A stretch of DNA of 64,000 bases from Utricularia gibba (taxonomy: Eukaryota > Streptophyta > Magnoliopsida > Lamiales > Lentibulariaceae): assembly GCA_002189035.1 (NCBI GenBank), contig CM007990.1, positions 186,001-250,000 of the forward strand. The letters are read 5' to 3'. The notes beneath the pieces are model-generated. The model was not told the DNA's origin. It was given only the letters and a program-made list of their open reading frames with translations, and did no database searches. This document shows, one piece after another, positions 50,669 through 64,000 of this stretch. Both the position numbers and the translations under genes were made by a program. Numbering within the stretch: the first letter of the stretch is position 1; every line of letters begins with the position of its first letter.

Positions 50669-51048
50669 CGTTCCCGGTTTATGGCCCCTTCCGCGAGTAC
50701 TCTCCTGAATGCGGACACGAGCACCTGTCTGTTCTCTCACCGCATAGAATTGTTTTCATTTTCTATTTGTGATTCCTGAATTGGGCCAAACCAATAGTAT
50801 ACCATCCACCAGTACACGAAAGGGGCCAATTTAATGGGCCTTATCGACAGGCCCAATATCATGACAACAAAGCAACGGAGGCCTTATTGATAAACAAATA
50901 TTTTGGGCCTTCCTTTGCACAAAGGCCCGATGTACTTTTAGAATACAACGGATCTCATGTCTCCGACATTTTCTCTGCATTTCCGACGGAAATTTTACAG
51001 GTGGGAAGCACCTAGAACGGACGTTTGTTTTGGGGAGACATCGCAACA
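50669..51048. promoter_or_regulatory. Divergent promoter region, NDUFS8 / CAP
   Basis: 380 bases separate divergent start codons. It contains several gggcc(t/c)/ggcccaat boxes (about 50775, 50824, 50850, 50907), like the TCP-site II elements (GGCCCA) found before many plant mitochondrial and housekeeping genes. Confidence 0.5.
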
Positions 51049-53557
51049 ATGAATGAGAGCTTGATAAGGAGGTTGGAATCTGCGGTGGCGTGCCTGGAAG
51101 CGCTTTCCGCGGGAAATGTCATTCGAGAGTTGAACGCGGCTTATGTCCCCGGAGGTACTGCGTCGTCGGATCCTTCGATCTTGGCGTATGAATATCTCAT
51201 CTCAGAGCGTGTCGGGAAAGTTTTGAGGGCCGGGGAGAAGATCGGAGGTCAGGTTTTTGATATCTCGAGGATTATTCAGGAAGCATTTGGCCTGCAGAAG
51301 GAGCTTCTCGTAAACATCAAGCAAACTCAGGTTAGTCTCGTTGTGATGTGATTTACATGTACAGAAAGGAGTTTTGGGTGGGGATTTTTCATTTTTATGG
51401 CGACAACTATTGCCTGGTGAGCATTTCCGCGTTGTATCTTTTGATGCTTCATTTATAAGAATTAAGGAAACATGTGCTTACGGGTTACTGCTGAAACTTT
51501 ACTCCATTTGGATGATTTGAAGTTGCGTGATTTTTGTGAGATGTGGACTTGATTGTTATCCGATGCATTGTTAACCTCACTGAAGCCATTTCTAACTTGC
51601 AGAAACCTGACATGAGTGGATTACTTGACGTTCTTAAGCCGTTGAATGATGTGATCACGAAAGCATCAGCGTTGTCTGAGGGAAGGCGATCTCAGTTTTT
51701 CAACCACTTGAAGACCGGTGCTGACAGTCTGGCAGCTCTGGCATGGGTTGCTTATACCGGAAAAGACTCTGGTAAGAAAAAAAAGACATATTGTTCTTAT
51801 GTTTTCCTGTTTCTCATTCTTTGTTCCTTCCTTTTTTCATGAACAATAATTCCCTTGTTAGGTATGAGCATGCCAATCTCACATGTTGAAGAGAGTTGGC
51901 AAATGGCTGAATTTTACTTTAACAAGGTAATCCCGTCCTGAATTTTCCCGCAGCTTTTGTTATCATGTACTCTTCAGTATGCATGAAGGTTTTTAAATCT
52001 CTTTCGAGATATGTTTTTCGCCATTGCATAAGGTTTATAAACAGCTTTAAATGTAATTTGATGGCATCAACATCTGCTCTGGTGTGATTTTATGACTTAT
52101 TTACGAGGTACTCATCGAGTACAGAAACAAAGATGAAAATCATGTTGAATGGGCAAAAGCTGTGAAGGAGTTATATATCCCAGGCTTGCGAGATTACGTG
52201 AAGAACCACTATCCGCTAGGTCCAGTATGGAGTACCGCTGCAAAGGCGTGTGCACCTTCCTTTACAAAAGCTCCTGTTACACGTGGTCCAGTTCCTCCTC
52301 CCCTCCTCCTGCTTCGCTTTTCAGCTCTGAAACAGCACAGCCCTCCTCATCTCGCCCAAAAGAGGGAATGGCTGCTGTTTTCCATGAAATTAATTCTGGA
52401 AAGGCAGTTACATCAGGTAATTTTATTACTCCTGATCTCAGTATGCTCACTGTAATTCATATTTTGGTTTCCTAAAAGGTCTGAAAAAGGTCACCGATGA
52501 TATGAAAACCAAGAACCGGGCAGACAGGTATAGTGTGGTTAGTGCTTCTGACAAAAGGGCCGATGCTTCTGCGACTGCCTTCTCCAAAGAAGGGCCTCCA
52601 AAGCTAGATCTTCAGATGGGTCGCAAGGTTAGGGAAAATTACTCTTTAACATGGTCCTCTTATTTGTTTCCCTTGTGGCGTAAGCCCAGTGTAAGTTTCT
52701 AAATGGTATTCAGATGGGTGGTGGAGAATCAAGTTGGACGTAATGATCTGCTCATTGATGATTGTGATGCAAAGCAGTCAGTATACGTATATGGGTGTAA
52801 AAATTCTGTTTTGCAGATTCAAGGTAATTTTTCTGACCCTAACCACTAATCTTAATGTAAGTTGATTTCGTCTTCAAAGACCTCACTTCACAATATCCAT
52901 GCAGGAAAAGTGAACAACATTACTATTGACAAGTGCACAAAGATGGGTGTGGTATTCAAGGTAAGCTATCAAATTTCTCTTACATATATCTAGCTGTTAT
53001 GTGAATCACTGAGCCCATCCGTAGAAACTGCAACTTGTGTCTTTCTAATCTATTCCGGAATTCGGAATCCAGGATGTTGTGGCAGCTTGTGAGATAGTCA
53101 ATTGCAACTCCGTGGAGGTTCAATGTCAGGTAATCCACACAGTGCTCCGATCTGAGCCACCGAACATAAAAACCAGAAAACTGAAATGGAGTTTTCAGCG
53201 AGTCCTTTTCCTCCCTGTCAGGGATCTGCACCTACAGTCTCTGTCGACAATACCTCAGGTTGTCAGTTGTACTTGAGTAAAGATTCTCCTGAAGCTTCTC
53301 TAGCCACAGCAAAATCAAGTGAAGTCAATGTTCTGGTACCCGCATCTGACTCAGAGGGTGATTGGGTATGTGCTCCGTACATTTCTTCCCTCTGCTGTTT
53401 CTTTCTCCCACAGCTCATAAATCCCCACCCACTCTGCTTCACCATTCACTCCCGAAAACTTCTCCTGCAGGGAGAGCATGCATTGCCTCAGCAATATGCT
53501 CATGTCTACAAAGATGGCATGTTTGTGACAGCTCCCGTCTCTCACTCCGGCGGCTAA
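51049..53557 (+). CDS. CAP1: Adenylyl cyclase-associated protein (CAP), actin regulator, with frame breaks
   Basis: Ten exons: 51049-51330, 51603-51771, 51862-51926, 52108-52416, 52479-52627, 52715-52823, 52905-52960, 53073-53129, 53222-53365, 53471-53557. With one base restored the total is 476 codons, the length of plant CAP1. Features: N-terminal helical domain (LIRRLESAVACLEALSAG; AFGLQKELLVNIKQTQ), VLIEYRNKDENHVEWAKAVK, a proline stretch (PPPASLFSS), EGMAAVFHEINSGKAVTSG, LKKVTDDMKTKNRADR, and the beta-helical CARP domain to VTAPVSHSGG. Plant CAP recharges actin monomers with ATP. Two oddities: one C missing from the run 52300-52303 in the proline stretch, and an extra A at 52714 between the acceptor and TGG that must be ignored to join GRK-WVVEN. 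Confidence 0.92.
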
Positions 53558-54147
53558 CCCAGCCACCTGATTCTCCCCCATGCTTTCACAGATAAAAACA
53601 TATTCCCTGAACATGCTTTTTGAAAGCAGGAGTTCAAGGTTGCTAGCCCAAAGGAGTTATTTTTACCTGGATGGGGTATTCAGTTGTTTAATCTGTATAT
53701 CATTATTTTACTGGGAGTCACTGCAGTATGCGCAAGCACTCCGCCGCACCTTCCGGATCGGTCGGTCGGAACCCCAGATTGATTTGTCAGCATGGGCTCC
53801 GTCCTCCGTCCTCCGCCTCCAACATTCATACATTTATTTCAAATAATTTATTCAAAATAAATATTCGTATTATCTTAAATAATCAAATACATTGGGTGTT
53901 TATTCGATAGTTAATATAATGCAAATTATATCTACCTCCACTAAAAACAATCATTTTTGTAAATTTATCTGATATTTCTTCAATTTAAATGCTACAAAAT
54001 GCAATCAAAACATCTTTACTGCATTGCCAACTTTGGAGAACATTAATTGTAGATGCTCTTTTATATCATGGAAAAGGTACGATTTAATTTACATTAAATA
54101 TAAAAAAGAAATCAAAACAGTAAATATAATTAATAATGTGAAAAAAC

Positions 54148-54454: not shown

Positions 54455-54460
54455 TATAAA
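54455..54460 (+). promoter_or_regulatory. TATA box, GRP gene A
   Basis: TATAAA in gtgtataaaatgcgctgc, 63 bases before the ATG. The following aaatgc(g/a)ctgc context is shared with gene B. Confidence 0.65.
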
Positions 54461-54522: not shown

Positions 54523-55570
54523 ATGATGGCTCCCGTTCCGAGGTTCATTCTCTTTGCTACCTTCGTTTTAGGTGCTGCTGCTTTCCTGCAAGTAAGCGGG
54601 AGGGAAATGCCGGTGTCTGTGGACTCGGGAGATGAAGGTTAGTCGCCATCTTCTTCTTCTTCTTCTCTTTTTGTTGCTGAGAGTAGACAACCCTGGAGAT
54701 CATTTTGTTCATGGTTATGTGTGGGTGTCCTTTTTCAGCAAAGCATTTTAAGGAAGGAACGGTTAACGATGGTAAGTGGTTCTTTCCATGGCATCATCCC
54801 TGGTTTCACGGAGCAAACGGCGCTGGAGGAAATGGCGGCGGTGGTCTAGGAGGAGGAAATGGCGATGGTGGTCAGGGAGGAGGAAATGGCGATGGTGGTC
54901 AGGGAGGAAATGGCGATGGTGGTCAGGGAGGAGGATTGGGCGGCGGTGGCCAGGGAGGTGGAAATGGCGGCGTTGGCCCGGGAGGAGGATACGGCGGCGG
55001 TGGTCAGGGAGGAGGAAGTGGCGGCGATGGTCAGGGAGGAGGATTGGGCGGCGGTGGTCAGGGAGGTGGAAATGGCGGCGTTGGCCCGGGAGGAGGATAC
55101 GGCGGCGGTGGTCAGGGAGGAGGAAGTGGCGGCGATGGTCAGGGAGGAGGATTGGGCGGCGGTGGTCAGGGAGGTGGAAATGGCGGCGTTGGCCCGGGAG
55201 GAGGATACGGCGGCGGTGGTCAGGGAGGAGGAAGTGGCGGCGATGGTCAGGAGGAGGATTGGGCGGCGGTGGCAGGGAGGAGGATTGGGCGGCGGTGGCC
55301 AGGGAGGAGGATGGAGCTCGGCGGCGGTGGCCAGGGAGGAGGACTCGGCGGCGGTGGCCAGGAGGAGGAGGAGGAGGACTCGGCGGCGGTGGCCAGGGAG
55401 GAGGACTCGGCGGCGGTGGCCAGGGAGGAGGACTCGGCGGCGGTATTCTGGGGAGGACACGGCGGTGGTATTCTGGGGGAGGACACGGCGGTGGTATTCT
55501 GGGAGGAGGACACGGCGTTGGTGGTCTGGGTGGGGGATTCGGCGGCGGTAGCGTGGGTGGAGGATACTGA
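54523..55570 (+). CDS. Secreted glycine-rich protein, GRP array gene A, frame-broken in its repeat
   Basis: Exon 1 (54523-54637) encodes a signal peptide (MMAPVPRFILFATFVLGAAA) and REMPVSVDSGDEG. An ATG lies at 54523 and another directly after it at 54526; the second fits the paralogues better (MAPVPRF, MASFPRV, MGSIPRR). The phase-1 intron ends at 54738. Exon 2 begins AKHFKEGTVNDGKWFFPWHH and then becomes Gly-Gly-Gln/Asp repeats. The end, in another frame, is GGGFGGGSVGGGY before TGA at 55568-55570, matching the GGPGGGY end of gene B. Several small indels between about 55245 and 55375 change frame (into EEDWAAVAGRR and similar). Wall-associated or apoplastic GRPs are the likely class. The function is unknown. 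Confidence 0.8.
54925..55260 (+). repeat. 108-base minisatellite inside GRP gene A
   Basis: Three near-identical 108-base (36-codon) units can be aligned on the attggg landmark at 54935, 55043 and 55151. A fourth, decayed unit lies one base short at 55258. Each unit contains gtggaaatggcggcgttgg and gatacggcggcggtggtcag. Because the period is a multiple of three and lacks stops on every frame, it yields long spurious open frames on both strands. Confidence 0.9.
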
Positions 55571-56261
55571 AGCTTCAAGCGACCGAACAGAAAACTCCTC
55601 GAAGTATAATAAATCCGCTTGCGCCAATGTAAACATGGTTTCCGTAAGTCTCGTCACCTTGTACTCGTCACATGCCTGGTGCATGTTCATGTTTTTATTC
55701 TAATGTTTTCGAATAAATTTAAGGTTGGTTGTATCTTTCATTCCTATGCAATGCCTCACTGATTCTCCAGGTACACACATTGCAAGTCCCGTCTGTTATA
55801 AATATGGTCAATACCTCTTACCTGTGTGATCAAAATTTTGATTGAGTGTGTGAGATAGAATGTGAAAATGAGATCCCACAGTAATCACATGATTGATTTT
55901 CACCTTCATTCATTCACTTGGTCCCTCAAAGTATGCGTTGCGTGATCAGGTGACTGACCCAAGCTATCGAGGCATCCATCCATCCCCACCCAACCCAACA
56001 TAACTGGGCTCTTCATATCACAGAAGCCTGCCTGCCTGCCTGCCCGCCTCAGATCTGATCTGATCTGATACAATTTGGAGTTAATTTTTATTGATACCCA
56101 TGCCTCAGATCTCATCTGGTGTTTGTTGTTCCCGAGGGTTGAACTTGTCATGGTGTCAAAGCATGTTTTTTGTGGATGACAGGGAGTCGGAGAAGAAGAC
56201 TTAGACTTGTTCCAAGGACGAGTAGAGAGACAGACATATCTTGAACAAACAACCACCCGAC

Positions 56262-56282
56262 GGCCCTACTCCACATTAACTC
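56262..56282 (+). promoter_or_regulatory. Shared upstream box, GRP gene B
   Basis: ggccctactccacattaact(c) preceded by caaacaaccacc. The same box, with small changes, stands before genes C, D and E at a similar distance from TATA. Confidence 0.6.
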
Positions 56283-56301
56283 ACCCGCCACCTTCTCCTT
56301 C

Positions 56302-56307
56302 TATAAA
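56302..56307 (+). promoter_or_regulatory. TATA box, GRP gene B
   Basis: TATAAA within ccttctataaaatgcactgc, 52 bases before the ATG. Confidence 0.65.
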
Positions 56308-56353
56308 ATGCACTGCGCTCAGCAGGCGATTCACAACACACAAGACAAGGAAG

Positions 56354-56715
56354 ATGGCTTCCAGGTCCATTCTCTTCACCACCTTGGTCTTAGCTGCTGC
56401 TCTCCTCCTTGCCTCTTCCCTTGCCGCCGCCAGGGAAGTCCCGCAGTCTCTCGACACCGCAGAGCAACGTCAGTTATCTTCTCCTTCTTCTTCTTATTGC
56501 ACGAACTAGAAAACCCTAGATATTATGTCCATGTTTGTGTGCGTTTTTCAGCAAAGCAGTTCCAGCAAGGAACGGTTAACGATGGCAAGTGGTTCTTTTT
56601 CCCATGGTGGCATCATCAATGGAATCCTTGGTCAAACGGAGGATACGGCGGTGGAGGGTATGACGGAGGGTACGGCGGCGGTGGTTACGGCGGTGGCCCC
56701 GGAGGAGGATACTGA
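56354..56715 (+). CDS. Secreted glycine-rich protein, GRP array gene B
   Basis: Exons 56354-56468 and 56552-56715 give 92 residues with no frame break. The signal peptide is MASRSILFTTLVLAAALLLA, ending near SSLAAA|REVPQ. Exon 1 is 115 bases, the same as gene A. Exon 2 starts PKQFQQGTVNDGKWFFFPWW, then HHQWNPWSNGG, then Gly/Tyr repeats (GGYDGGYGGGGYGGGPGGGY). The intron is phase 1 with CAAC|GTCAGT and TTTTTCAG|. The aromatic and His/Trp-rich stretch before the glycine tail is shared with gene A (FFPWHHPWFHG), so A and B are the closest pair. Confidence 0.88.
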
Positions 56716-58408
56716 ACCCCAAAAGCGATGCATCTACTTCTACACCTGGGAACTACTACAGTAATCCGCAATACACCTGCGGTACATAATAAATGTGTTT
56801 GCGACTGTGTAAAACTTTGTGTCCGTACCTGTCTTCTCCATGTGGCTTCTTTCATGCAATGAATGTAGTATATATTACAACATGTGTTTCACAACCCATA
56901 CCACCAAATATCGGGTCGGATCCCTAACCATTTAGATTTCAACCCGAAATTAAAACATAAAACAAGAGAATAATCTTTTTTTTTTTTTGCATATTTTATT
57001 TATCACCCTTTGAACTTCCCATCAGTGGTGTAGTGAATAATTCGATAACAAAAGTGAAGAAAACGGTATTATCTAGTTGATCATAACATATAATTATAAA
57101 ATTAACTTCCCCAATATATTTAGTATATAATACCTATATTTTTTACCATATCTCAACACACACTCACATGGTGTAGAGTGGTATCATTTGACGCTATGCA
57201 ATAAAAAAAAATCTTGTTTCATGTACTACTAAAATTTTTTATTAACGCTATAAATTTAGATTATTATTAATTTAATATCACTAAAGAAAATAAAAATATT
57301 AATACAAAATCGTCAAGGACACATCACAATCTGCCTACCAATGATTTGTTCCTCAACTTTGATGCGGTTCGGGCCTCCGGGTTGATGGGTAGCATGTATT
57401 CTTTAGTTATATAATATGTGAGCCACGGTATTTAAAAAATCATGATTAAATTATGTTGCGCTATGAACTATTAATCGTAAAGCTAGGTTAAAGTCGACAT
57501 AATCACGATTGAATTGTTTTGGAATACAAGGTCTTTGTGTATTTTTATTTTTTTAGTGATTTAAAATAATGGGTATCCATGGGTAGTCCCCGAGTACCAA
57601 GTCAAACTTACGTCCCCGGATAGACACACTCCAAACCCTAACAAAAAAAAAAAAAAAATCAAGTTGGGTAATCCCCAGGTACCAAGTCAAACTCAGCAGC
57701 TCTGTGATCTGTTTTTGTTGTGAGGTTGAGCGTTGGTTTTGTGATGGGGAGGTTCATTTATCTGCTAACTGTTGAATCATTGACACGGGAAGACCTGGAG
57801 AGGGAGGCTGGGTCAAGCCAATCGAAGCATGACAGGGACCGCCCACCATGCGATCGATCATAAAGCTTCCAGTTGGCTCAGATCGCTGTAATGCAAATCT
57901 GGTGCCACTCCCCGATTCCCATCTGATCTCCCCAGTTTTTCCAAAATGCACACACAGTATATGCTGATGATATGAGGTAGCCTCAAGGCCTCTCGAATGA
58001 GGGAATGCTCGGCATCTTGACCTCAGGGAGGAATGATCAGGAACAAGTCAAACCCTCAAAAAAAGAAATGCAACTTGAGATAAAGAGATATCAGAAGTCA
58101 AATTGACGTAGACTTGGAAGATAATGAGAACCATGTGATGGAACTTAAACAATGATCTTCTTCTAAGAGTCGTTTGCTCTGATCATGATTCAGGCGTGTA
58201 GTTTAAGAACTACTCTCCGCATCAGGACTTTGTCAATACCAGCAGTAAATATCATCCCACATCGTATTCGTAAAGATAAATAGTTGGTTCGATGAAAACT
58301 TATATGAATTCATGATGATGTATAAACAGGGTTTCCATTCCAATGTGTTAAGCAGCTATTTGACAACTTAAAAGTTTGATAATAAATGCAACAAACAACC
58401 AGTCGAGG

Positions 58409-58425
58409 GGCCTACGCATTAACTC
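58409..58425 (+). promoter_or_regulatory. Shared upstream box, GRP gene C
   Basis: ggcctacgcattaactc preceded by acaaacaaccagtcga, closely like the box before gene B. Confidence 0.6.
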
Positions 58426-58460
58426 TTAGCTGTGGAGGCGTGTCGAGCTCCATCTCCTTC

Positions 58461-58466
58461 TATAAA
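58461..58466 (+). promoter_or_regulatory. TATA box, GRP gene C
   Basis: TATAAA within ctccttctataaatagtgg, 46 bases before the ATG. Confidence 0.65.
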
Positions 58467-58506
58467 TAGTGGCGGATTCTGCAAGTCATCCTCACACAGC
58501 AAGAAA

Positions 58507-58971
58507 ATGGGTTCCATTCCAAGGCGCTTCTTGTTCACCACCTTTGCCTTGGCCGCTTTCCTCCTCGCCCTTTCGCAAGCCACCGCCAGGGATCTTCCGC
58601 AGCAGACTCTCGACCCGGCAGTGGAATGTAAGTCACACCCTTTTTCTCTCTCTCTAACCCTATAGAGTTTGCTCATACTTGCGTGTGTCTGTTGTTCAGC
58701 TAAGCATTCTAAGGAAGGAACGGTCAGTGATGCTAAGTGGTACGGTGGCGGCGGAGGCTTCGGCGGTGGATATGGAGGAGGCTACGGCAGCGGATATGGA
58801 GGAGGCTACGGCAGCGGATATGGAGGAGGTTACGGAAGCGGAGGAGGATTCGGTGGAGGAGGGGGGTACGGTGGAGGAGGTGGCTACGGAAGCGGAGGAG
58901 GATTTGGCGGAGGAGGAGGATACGGCGGTGGGGGTGGATACGGTGGCGGATACGGCGGAGGAGGATGGTGA
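58507..58971 (+). CDS. Secreted glycine-rich protein, GRP array gene C
   Basis: Exons 58507-58627 and 58700-58971 join to 130 residues, frame intact. The signal peptide is MGSIPRRFLFTTFALAAFLL, with cleavage near ATA|RDLPQ. Exon 2 starts SKHSKEGTVSDAKWYGGGGG and continues as repeats of GGYGSGYGG and GGGFGGGGGYGG, ending GGYGGGGW. About two thirds of the mature protein is glycine, with regular Tyr and Ser. Such proteins may be cross-linked through tyrosine in cell walls, but that is an inference. Phase-1 intron with GAAT|GTAAGT and TTGTTCAG|. Confidence 0.88.
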
Positions 58972-59369
58972 AACTAAGAGCGGCCCTCCCTCCTAACCAG
59001 AAGAGAAACCCTCGTCATGCGTGTGCTATATAATAGAATAAGGATGATTGCACCAATGTACAACTCTGCTTGCGTCCATGGAGTCACTCCTCGTTTCATG
59101 CAATGCCATCCATAATTCATTCACCTTCAACACTGAACACACTTATCAAAGCACAACCGCGAGCACAGAGGAAACCCATTTCGACTGTAAAACATGCTAA
59201 TTCACTCCACTTAGAAATCTAACACGGCATACCAACCCCATCTATCACCTCATTCGGCTTGATTCATTATCTCTAATCATCTACTCTAATCTTTTATAAT
59301 ATAATATAAGTTTATTATATATTTGCATTCTACTTATGTTCATCTGACCCACCGTACTCTTAATTTCAA

Positions 59370-59371
<2 letters not shown>

Positions 59372-59410
<39 letters not shown>

Positions 59411-59469
59411 AGCTTCAAATTCCCAAGGACAAAAGGATCATTAGGCCACGCTTTCACGGTTCCTATAAG
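59372..59469 (-). pseudogene. Degraded 25S rRNA gene fragment
   Basis: The plus strand reads caagccagttatccctgtgg, then taacttttctgacacctcta, gcttcaaattcc, and finally ttaggccacgctttcacggt. This is the reverse complement of a highly conserved stretch in the 3' part of plant cytosolic 25S rRNA. There are several differences (for example ccaaggacaaaaggatcatt where the intact gene has ccgaaggtctaaaggatcg), and similarity fades after ggttc. It is an inserted, decayed copy about 100 bases long. Confidence 0.85.
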
Positions 59470-60963
59470 AATTTGAACCGGAAATTGATACATAGAACGT
59501 GTAAACTATATGTCTCTCCATGGAGGCGATATATATGTTATGGGAGTACCCAACTCAAAGTTATGCATTTTGTTCTAAAATAAACAAATTGTAAATCATG
59601 AGAAACAATCAAGCAATGAAAGTATCCGACCCATGAATGTGTACAAATGTTTAAACATCTAGCGATGTTTCTCTAAAAATACTTTTCGAAATATTTCTCA
59701 TAAAACATAAATTAGATCTCTATAACTTCTTAAAAATAACAAACACTTCTAAGTTTTTGTTCTTTTTTAAACCAAAAGTCACTTGATAACAAAACTAATG
59801 CATTTTTCAAAAAAACATATAAATTTCACCAATTTTAGTGATTTCCACTAAAAATAATAATAAAATTATGGAACCCGTTTTTGCAGATGAATGTATCCGA
59901 CACATGGATTAGTGTGAACGTTTGACATCTTAACCTAAACGGCAAAGATTGGAACAAGTCAAAGCTAAAAAAACGACAATAATGATGAAGATGGGGCCAA
60001 AGTATTAATTAACAAAACTGATTAATGTGATTGCCTGCACAAATCTACAACTCCATGTACAAATGTGTTTTGGAACCCATTTTTTTTTATATAGTCATGT
60101 ATTTAAACTGGGTCTGTTTTATAATTATTTTTTAAATTATTATTTAATCGAATTGAAATCATTTTTTGCATTCATCATGAATTCAAATTGAATCGGGTTT
60201 AACTTCAGGTTGAACGTCTCCATCCAACATGAAGATATACATGAACATTAGTCAACATGACGTTGACCCCATTTCCACAAAATAAAAAATGAAGAGTGGG
60301 GCAGCACCTCTACTTATCCGGTGCTAAACCAAGTCAATTACGAAGAGTTCTTCCTTGACACTATTATCCCTAACATTTAAATATAATCATTTGTCTTTAT
60401 ACAGTTGACTCATTCGGACAGGAGCTTGGGTTTAGTTCGAATAATGAATTTTGAAATTTTAGGAAATCGAATCGAATAGAATTTCGACGGGGAAATTCAT
60501 CAAAGTTTGTATACGTTAAAAGGGTGATAAGTGAACCAAATCCAATAGTGAATTTTTTTAAAATATGGTAAAATCAAAACCAAAATTTCGAAACCAAAAA
60601 ATCGATCCGATTCCGTAATCTCACCGTGTTAGGTACCAAGTCACGCTTAGCGACTAGGTCAAATTTAAAAAAACAAGGCTTCATTTTTATATGGCAAGTA
60701 TTTGGGCAAAGGAAAAAAAAAATGAATATGATGCAAAGATACGTACAATGCATCGTCCCCATGAGTGCTGTGGCGTGTTGTTTGAAAGAGATTTCTTTTT
60801 TTATATTTGTCATTAAATAAATCAATAAAAAATGTATACATAACCCTAGAAATCCGATTTTTTAATTGAAATAAGAAAGACATTTTCAACAAAGAAGGTG
60901 TCAAAGTGAGTGAGTCATCTTGGTTGTTTACGTGATTATCACTTCAGCGAGCAACTAATCCAT

Positions 60964-60978
60964 GGGCTACTCTTAACT
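60964..60978 (+). promoter_or_regulatory. Shared upstream box, GRP gene D
   Basis: gggctactcttaact preceded by gcaactaatccat. It is nearly the same as the box before gene E (ctaatccatggccctactcc). Confidence 0.55.
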
Positions 60979-60996
60979 GACTCTGCTAATGTTTTC

Positions 60997-61002
60997 TATA
61001 AA
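60997..61002 (+). promoter_or_regulatory. TATA box, GRP gene D
   Basis: TATAAA within ttttctataaataccaacg, 61 bases before the ATG. Confidence 0.65.
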
Positions 61003-61057
61003 TACCAACGCATTTTGGAAGGAACACACACACAAAGCCATCATAGGATCAAGAACA

Positions 61058-61489
61058 ATGGGTTCCTTTCCAAGGTTGGCTCTTTTCGCCGGCTTGCTTG
61101 TGTTTGCGCTCCTCCTCGTCTCTTCCCACGCTGTGGGGAGAGATCTAGAAGAGAAACCCGACTTCGTTGGCTCAAGTAAGCTCACTTGTTCTTGTTTTTG
61201 TGTGTGTGTGTGTAGTGGACTCACAATAAAGCCCTAGCTAGAGATTTCGTTCGTGCATGAATGCATCCTTGTTGTCTGGTTTCAGCCAAGCCTACTGAAG
61301 CAGGAGGGGTCGGCGAGTCTCAATGGGTGGTTATGGCGGCTACGGTGGTTGGGGAGGACGTGGCTGGGGTGGAGGATATGGCGGTTGGGGAGGACGTGGC
61401 TGGGTGGAGGATATGGTGGCTGGGGACGCCGCTGGGGAGGTGGCGGTTATGGTGGCTGGGGACACGGCGGATGGGGTGGTTGGAATTGA
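61058..61489 (+). CDS. Secreted glycine/tryptophan-rich protein, GRP array gene D, two apparent frame breaks
   Basis: Exon 1 (61058-61175): signal peptide MGSFPRLALFAGLLVFALLL, then VSSHAVGRDLEEKPDFVGS. Phase-1 intron (TCAA|GTAAGC, GGTTTCAG|). Exon 2 (61286-61489) starts TKPTEAGGVGESQW, the counterpart of the KW linker, and should continue GGYGGYGGWGGRGWGGGYGG. Two G runs are one base short (61325-61327 and 61402-61404). Restoring both gives 107 residues ending GGWGHGGWGGWN with TGA at 61487-61489. An identical ggctggggtggagg context earlier in the gene has the full G run, which supports loss at the second site. As written the frame is broken and runs VVMAATVVGEDVAG. Confidence 0.8.
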
Positions 61490-62636
61490 GGACACCGAGC
61501 CTGGGAACTGAAGAAACTCTGCTGAAACCGCCTCTCATCACTTAAGAATCCTAGAAAAATAAAGATGATTGGCGTAAAACTTGTCTGGTATGCCTGTCTG
61601 TGTGTGTCTATGTAATCTTTTCTAGTTCTATGTGATACTACTCTCTGTGCGTCACCAATAGACACAAAGCTCGATGCGAATCGCGATACACCTGCTGCTT
61701 ACACCGATTTACACACAAATCGTTGAAGATTACAAAAAGGGCTGATAATCCCTGCAAGTTAAGTTGACGTCGACCTTGAGAGACTTATCTGGAACATGAC
61801 TCCTCTGTGTATAGTCATGCCAAGTAGATAACTACCAGGTCCAACACTCTGTCAATTTCTGGCATCCAGGTGCTTGAGTGATCGATTACTAGAAAACAGC
61901 TTAGAGCAGAAGGCACGTATTTCCGCATATTTCACAAATTCCGATCCGATCTTAATCTGATCATCATGGTTTCTTTCAAAACCCTAAAACGAGCAAGGCT
62001 TGGTGGAGGCGCAGGAAACCCTAGTGAATGAAAGAGGTTTATTACTGGAGGGTCATTCAGTCGTTGACAGTAGACACATCGGGTAACCATGCTCTTTGGA
62101 GAAGGTGTTGGACTCTCGGTGATTAAATGGCGAAATCCTCAATGATTATTGTTGGAGAAACCTTGTGTGGTTATAAGAGAATCATGTTGAAGTTGAAAGT
62201 TATTGTAGCTCCCTAACTTGAAACTAAGATTTGAGTTTGTAGTTCCTAACTAGGAACCTAAAAGTTTGGATCTTGAGCTTGAGACACAAGAGCAGTCTTT
62301 GTATTCAAAAAAACTGCTTTACAAAGCTGTAACCACCAAGAATATATAGATAGATTTGAGTTGCAACTGTTGTAAAAGTTGATGTTGTATTATCAGATTT
62401 GCAATGGGCATCAATTAAGGTTGGGCTTGTGCTTGGGTGGGCTTTTCAACATGGTTTTATGGGAGCCTTGTGCACCTTGTAGGTCCAGTTGGGTTCTTTC
62501 CCAAGTTTCAGGGTCTTCCAAATCCACTTCAGCAAATATGCACGGTTTGGTCAAATGTTCAATGATTTTCTTATCATCTTTTAAAATAAGTATTCGATGG
62601 ATCGAGCGATCATACATGAAACTCAAATATATAATA

Positions 62637-63155
62637 AACATGTATCATGTTAGAAAAAATTAGATTTAACCAATTAATTATAACCTACAATTTTTTATAT
62701 ATTTTACATATCACTTTCAAATCCTGATGTATTATTATTTGTTCTAATAAATACTCGCCTTCAAATCGAACTTATTTGTGATCTGGTTAAGATTTATTTT
62801 TTTGATGATTATAGATAATGTTTAGGTTATAAGTTGGATTTAATTGTTTGTCACCTAAACATAATGCATCTCTTTATTTTTTTTATTTTTAACCAAAGCT
62901 TGGACCAATACGAAACCCGTCTTGATCACCCAAGTCATGACATAAGGCAAACGTTTTGGTATCATGTTAAAATTAAGGATCTAATGGATTGTATGAGTAT
63001 ACGTGAAGTTATTGTATACGATAAAACATGAATTATATTTGAAAAAATTAGATACAACCAATTAATTATAATTCTTAATTTTTTATATAAATGATTGTGT
63101 CACTTTCAAATTAATATGTGCTATTATTTATTCTAATCAATTCAACCGTGGCATG
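62637..63155. repeat. Diverged direct repeat of about 120 bases, 390 bases apart
   Basis: The stretches 62655-62765 and 63040-63145 share a(a/g)aaaaattagat(t/a)(t/c)aaccaattaattata, then aattttttatata and cactttcaaat, then tattatttgttctaata / tattatttattctaatc. They may be remnants of a terminal-repeat element, but no coding part is left between them. Confidence 0.6.
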
Positions 63156-63262
63156 CGGAGATGTATGAAGGAAATATAATTTTTCCGATCGATAGGAGTT
63201 ACAGAATGTGTGGATTATCTTCGTTGGGAGACAATTATCAGCTCAACTAACTCCTAATCCAT

Positions 63263-63280
63263 GGCCCTACTCCTTAACTC
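63263..63280 (+). promoter_or_regulatory. Shared upstream box, GRP gene E
   Basis: ggccctactccttaactc preceded by ctcctaatccat. Confidence 0.6.
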
Positions 63281-63393
63281 CAATTATGCATGCAAACAAA
63301 TAGAGATCACTCACTCAATAGTTTTTTCCTTCTACAAATACCAAGCCTTAGTGGAGCTGCACTCCCACAAAATATTCTACAGAAGGAAGAAGA

Positions 63394-63751
63394 ATGGCTT
63401 CCTTCCCCAGGGTTGCTCTCCTCGCGCTCTTCGCCCTCCTCCTAGCCTCTTCCCTCGCTGCTGCCAGGGATCTCCCGGAGAATCCCAACGCCGTCGACGC
63501 ATGTAAGTCACCCTTCCGCTTTTATCGTGAAACTCTAAAAACTTTGCTCATGCCTCCTCCTTGTCTGCATGCTTTCAGCCAAACCCAGTGAAGCAGGAAA
63601 GGTTGATGACGCCAAGTGGTACGGCTACCATTGGGATATCCTCGTTACGGGTACGGCTACCATTGGATATCCCCATTACGGGTACGGCTACTATTCGGGA
63701 TATCCCCATTACGGGGGCGGCTGGTACGGCGGACACCCTGGCTGGCATTGA
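63394..63751 (+). CDS. Secreted Gly/Tyr/His-rich protein, GRP array gene E
   Basis: Exons 63394-63502 and 63579-63751 give an open frame of 93 residues. The signal peptide is MASFPRVALLALFALLLASS, cleaved near LAAA|RDLPE. Exon 2 begins SKPSEAGKVDDAKWYGYHW. It continues as GYPHYGYGYY, SGYPHYGGGWYGG and ends HPGWH. A ten-residue piece (DILVTGTATI) is out of style. It lies between two shortened G runs (63633-63635, 63665-63666), which together lose three bases. If both are restored the piece reads as more GYPRYGYGYHW repeat. So the written frame is open, but the middle may be wrong. The upstream element is ttctacaaataccaag, a weaker TATA (63333) than in the paralogues. Confidence 0.85.
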
Positions 63752-64000
63752 GGACCCCCCGGACTCCGACTCCCCCGACGGAAGGATATCTCCTGTCACC
63801 GCGCATCATCCCCATGTATCCGGAGTGCAATAAAGATGCTTGCGTCAATCTGGTGTTGTGTGTGTCCCTGTGTAATCTCCCTGGTCTGCTTTCATATGAA
63901 AAAAATGGTTTGTGTCGTGTTTCAATGCTTCCTCAACCAAACACGGCATGCATAGGATTGCAACTTAGGCCCCAATAATGCAGAATCTTGACACACACGT
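63752..64000. other. 3' flank of GRP gene E
   Basis: Contains aataaa (63829) as a likely polyadenylation signal followed by a gcgtcaatctggtgt region similar to the 3' flanks of genes A and B. The window ends here, and the array may continue. Confidence 0.4.

Follow-up and report, generated by a model that had tools for sequence, protein, structure and literature searches.

A tandem array of glycine-rich protein genes in Utricularia gibba: gene plan, stepwise duplication and divergence of the tails

In a 64,000-nucleotide window of the Utricularia gibba genome (contig C2, positions 186,001-250,000, in an assembly of 100.09 Mb and 516 contigs), a sequence-only reading described five genes on the + strand at window positions 54,523-63,751, each with a signal-peptide exon, a short linker and a glycine-rich tail, the tails being of different chemistries. 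The locus raises the question of how such an array arose, how far the tails have evolved apart from the rest of the gene, and what the proteins may be for. The reading to which we give a probability of roughly 0.78 is that the glycine-rich protein (GRP) family expanded locally to form the array, which encodes secreted, cross-linkable proteins of the wall or surface and grew by duplication in steps. A local expansion of secreted GRP genes is a recognised kind of cluster and not a new type of system. A literature search on Utricularia and arrays of glycine-rich or PF07172 genes turned up no paper that describes it directly.

Gene plan and family membership

When the genes were re-modelled from sequence, all five were recovered, but the array holds nine. 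Extension of the window, a check that had been proposed with the original five, adds B', C', D' and E' within the next 10 kb (65,587-71,960 in window-extended coordinates) with the order B-C-D-E kept. On the + strand, exons 1 and 2 lie at 54523-54637 and 54739-55570 in gene A, 56354-56468 and 56552-56715 in B, 58507-58627 and 58700-58971 in C, 61058-61175 and 61286-61489 in D, and 63394-63502 and 63579-63751 in E. The lengths of exon 1 (115, 115, 121, 118 and 109 bases in A to E) and of the GT-AG introns, all in phase 1 (101, 83, 72, 110 and 76 bases), agree with the earlier description, as do the ends of the linkers: TVNDGKW in A and B, TVSDAKW in C, GESQW in D and KVDDAKW in E. The linkers of all five genes are alike far beyond shuffles, and in all nine a putative signal peptide can be read by eye, hydrophobic and with small residues ahead of R-D/E. 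All genes of the two blocks but E have TATAAA 46-68 bases upstream of the start codon (at 54455, 56302, 58461 and 60997 in A to D); at about 63333 the promoter of E has TACAAATA in place of the TATAAATA of E' and D.

In gene A the linker is followed by a His/Trp stretch and then by a tail with periods of 27 and 108 bases, that is, 9 and 36 residues, so the 36-residue repeat reported earlier is real. A stretch rich in Trp, His and Pro, which the earlier description does not mention, is found right after the linker in both B and A (56,592-56,640 and 54,780-54,815; KWFFPWHHPWFHG and KWFFFPWWHHQWNPW). It is also present in B' (FFHPWWHHPWNPWFH), where 4 of 17 residues differ from B. An Rfam scan of the window found nothing.

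The array genes belong to the plant secreted GRP family (Pfam GRP, PF07172; gathering cut-off 30 bits), class I/V. The cut-off is passed by B (51 bits), B' (60.2) and C' (35.7), while C at 28.7 bits falls slightly below it and E and E' score 24.7 and 25.9; members under the cut-off are probably of the same family, judging by their paralogy. The array genes resemble PF07172 proteins in the conserved ARDL/ARE-type end of the putative signal peptide, the short linker and the Gly-rich tail, and differ from them in the TVxDxKW linker of A, B and C, in the Trp/His-rich stretch that follows it in A and B, and in that A and one gene of the homeologous locus discussed below (H1) are beneath detection, neither giving a PF07172 match in the Pfam profile search.

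Class I GRPs consist of a signal peptide and (GGX)n, and the absence of a Cys-rich end from the array members places them in class I/V of the published scheme (PMC5852109). B, B', C and C' have, in frame, a GGX or GGX/GXGX tail with no further domain; the Gly-rich tails of D, D', A and E are only partly in frame. The mature proteins of B, B', C, C' and E, as far as they are in frame, contain no cysteine, and no Pfam match to an oleosin domain, as in class III GRPs, was obtained. The likeness to class I/V proteins of the bean PvGRP1.8 type lies in a putative signal peptide with (GGX)n or mixed GGX/GXGX repeats behind it and no extra domain, localisation of the array proteins in the wall being presumed. 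With class II GRPs (AtGRP3, dodder CrGRP) they share small size, a high glycine content and putative secretion; however, none has the Cys-rich C-terminus of that class, and binding to WAK1 of the AtGRP3 type is therefore not expected.

The plan is not confined to the array. Two other GRP loci in the genome match PF07172 at 45.4 and 42.8 bits, and PF07172-like exons are present on contigs C508, C505, C402, C1, C213 and C375, such counts of distant relatives being lower bounds. In several of the other loci a signal exon and a phase-1 intron likewise precede a linker whose last residue is aromatic (ENAQY, QTDQW, SKQY) and a Gly-rich tail, and the exon/intron/linker module is therefore the normal architecture of the family. 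Further clusters with this gene plan were seen on C508 (at 295,958, 297,388 and 298,938), C402, C505 and C1. Elsewhere in the genome, COX1 on contig C515 has two adjacent cysteines (LLLLCCSALVEV), a change which published work describes in Utricularia and in some Genlisea (PMC3141634).

Duplication in steps

Gene birth by duplication, as first proposed, is borne out by a colinear copy of most of the array and by a homeologous locus with two genes against nine. The repeated block measures 8-9 kb and runs from the 3' untranslated region of A through E to a C-terminal fragment of HSP70. Its first copy extends on the + strand from 55571 to the end of the window at 64000 and on to about 64580, and the second, colinear copy lies directly downstream at 64581-72720 (C2:250581-258720), without gene A save for its 3' end. 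The aligned copies have 6,790 identical and 752 different bases, a divergence of 10.0%. The second block was also considered as an allele or haplotig, an origin which we dismiss because of the divergence of about 10% and the colinear placement on a single contig.

A tract of 477 bases (63739-64215), which begins in the final codons of E and reaches into the HSP70 fragment, is identical between the copies, and such identity amid about 10% divergence points to recent gene conversion or unequal exchange. Each copy of the block is closed by an HSP70 fragment ending in PKIEEVD (about 64,200-64,424 and 72,330-72,541, window-extended), which is apparently a piece of pseudogene carried along by the block duplication. 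Between D and E there is also a direct repeat of 189 bases (62,566-62,752 and 62,954-63,141) with 72% identity, and the stretch around it is missing from the second block copy.

At the homeologous locus (C451:1,815,001-1,841,000), the left flank, with the gene for cyclase-associated protein that lies at 50942-53593 (+ strand) in the window, matches at 76-80%, and the right flank at 71-79%. Two GRP genes built like those of the array lie between these conserved flanks: H1, with linker NVGDAKF and a collagen-like GAPGAP tail, and H2, with linker GTVRDAKW and a Gly frame that breaks early in the tail. A tree built from exon 1 and the linker separates {A,B,C,H2} from {D,E,H1,other clusters}, although the alignment is short and the inner forks are mostly unresolved. 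Together, tree and homeologous locus indicate that two or more kinds of member were already present in the array when the region was duplicated, and that the array has since grown on C2 or shrunk on C451. We envisage that a single-gene duplication, giving the split between A/B/C and D/E, came first, before a larger-scale and probably whole-genome duplication, and that the block from the 3' end of A to E would have been duplicated in tandem later, with occasional conversion between the copies.

Reading frames of the glycine-rich tails

The frame is open from the linker through the stop in B, B', C and C'. The GGWGGRGW tail first ascribed to D, in contrast, is out of the linker frame, and the spliced frame reads QWVVMAATVV; the Gly frame of D shifts by one base where linker and tail meet and once more within the tail, with its stop at 61489, and the linker frame continues to 61545. 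Two alternative acceptors for D were considered, and neither convinces: use of an AG five bases downstream leads straight to a stop, and that of one 32 bases downstream would lose the linker. D' is broken at the junction in the same place as D. In A the Gly frame, whose stop at 55570 is common to A and B, is lost beyond about 55,247. In E, two internal breaks, in repeat units of 31-33 bases, cancel each other, and E' goes out of frame close to its end. The breaks in these five genes and in one homeolog are single-base losses, mostly in runs of G. As such losses change the frame, the Gly-rich tails in the assembly are not readable at face value, and the broken Gly frames of A, D, D', E, E' and H2 could mean that not all copies are functional.

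Errors in the long-read consensus and real decay are both possible causes. An early single-molecule assembly may have gone wrong in the consensus of G-rich repeats, all nine genes being intact; we hold this to be a serious possibility, at a little under even odds. The breaks are confined to the tails, mostly with one G missing per run, and exon 1 and the linkers are free of them; other glycine-rich genes (L006, L022, L024) have similar breaks, and a PacBio genome was used in published U. gibba work (PMC8333044). Against this, C keeps G runs of 5 and 6 unbroken, and D and D' are broken at one shared place, although D' retains nine other GGGG runs. A shared break is expected if it is older than the block duplication, and real one-base deletions might have left an array that is mostly decaying, with only B, B', C and C' working and A, D, D', E and E' as pseudogenes. 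This we find rather doubtful, although the total lack of breaks in the former four genes, the altered TATA box of E and the HSP70 genes of the assembly, open over 585-650 aa, so that indels do not abound in ordinary genes, are all consistent with it. Exon 1 and the linker in D/D' and E/E' are without frame breaks or stops and have few protein changes, the Gly-frame stops remain homologous in all copies, and some other GRP genes of the genome also shift frame in G-rich tails, which suggests a cause in the sequencing. On balance the shared break of D and D' leans toward real loss, and the restriction to tails leans toward error in the other genes.

If the junction shift in D and D' is real and the genes are expressed, it could have switched the tail by overprinting from a Gly/Trp-rich to an unrelated composition, the tail of D' in the linker frame being rich in E, D, A, V and M. 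This seems very unlikely to us; if true, it would mean a new tail chemistry acquired in one step behind a kept secretion module.

Selection, tail change and probable function

The block copies provide a measure of selection. In exon 1 plus linker, pooled, 13 of 157 synonymous and 13 of 470 non-synonymous sites differ (pS 0.083, pN 0.028; Fisher p 0.005), showing that purifying selection acts on this part of the genes. The conserved module proposed earlier is not specific to the array, being common to other GRP loci of the genome. The introns of B (56,469-56,551), C (58,628-58,699), D (61,176-61,285) and E (63,503-63,578) have 11 differences in 339 bases, a lower rate than that of the synonymous sites (p 0.02) and of the flanks, which could be explained by conversion or by a function of the introns.

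The tails, described as different in chemistry, are not unrelated, as their ends are homologous: GGATACTGA in A, B, B' and C' (with GGATGGTGA in C), and a GW[N/H] stop in D and E. Rapid tail change holds at the level of DNA for two of the pairs, with the reservation that alignment of repeats inflates the counts: C and C' differ at 37 of 225 positions in the tail and 4 of 234 in the rest of the gene (p 1e-8), and D and D' at 21 of 162 and 11 of 267 (p 0.001). The excess is less clear in E/E' (p 0.02) and lacking in B/B' (p 0.6), which differ by an in-frame length change of 33 bases. The suggestion that tails run free finds no support where frames are intact, for the C/C' differences fall at codon positions 1, 2 and 3 in the numbers 4, 5 and 28 (p 3e-7); in this pair the repeat DNA churns and the protein is kept, which is at odds with a tail running free. 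In the Gly frame of D/D' the corresponding numbers are 6, 4 and 12 (p 0.09), which is suggestive only. The tails probably evolve chiefly as repeat units are gained, lost or exchanged, their overall composition being kept.

Family membership and composition make a secreted wall or surface protein the most likely product. After removal of the signal peptide, judged by eye, at a site of the A-x-A/R-[D/E] type, the mature protein would have a short acidic/basic linker closed by an aromatic residue, and its Gly/Tyr/Trp(/His)-rich tail would be deposited in the cell wall or on an extracellular surface, where the aromatic residues would be available for cross-linking. In dodder, localisation in the wall has been shown for the class II protein CrGRP (PMC8096328). 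The other proposal, that the linker is a processing site from which tail peptides are released as signals, seems hardly credible: conservation of the linker between paralogues is the sole point for it within the array, and the 21-residue GRP-derived epitope that is recognised in dodder sits in a Cys-rich C-terminus which the array genes lack (PMC8096328). No sign of release was found at the linker, which has no dibasic site and differs from the linkers of other GRPs in the genome, and tail length and repeat number vary, unlike those of known peptide hormones.

The secreted wall or surface protein family remains our reading, and the array is real, ordinary in kind and moderately useful as a case study. 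In the oleosin-GRP pollen-coat cluster of Brassicaceae, tandem genes likewise join a conserved module to fast-changing glycine-rich repeats; the resemblance is one of likeness and not of membership, since the module there is an oleosin domain, which is absent from the array. With nine paralogues in about 18 kb, four pairs of block copies of the same age and one homeologous locus, the array of U. gibba is a compact case in which the change of low-complexity secreted tails may be measured relative to signal exon, intron and linker.
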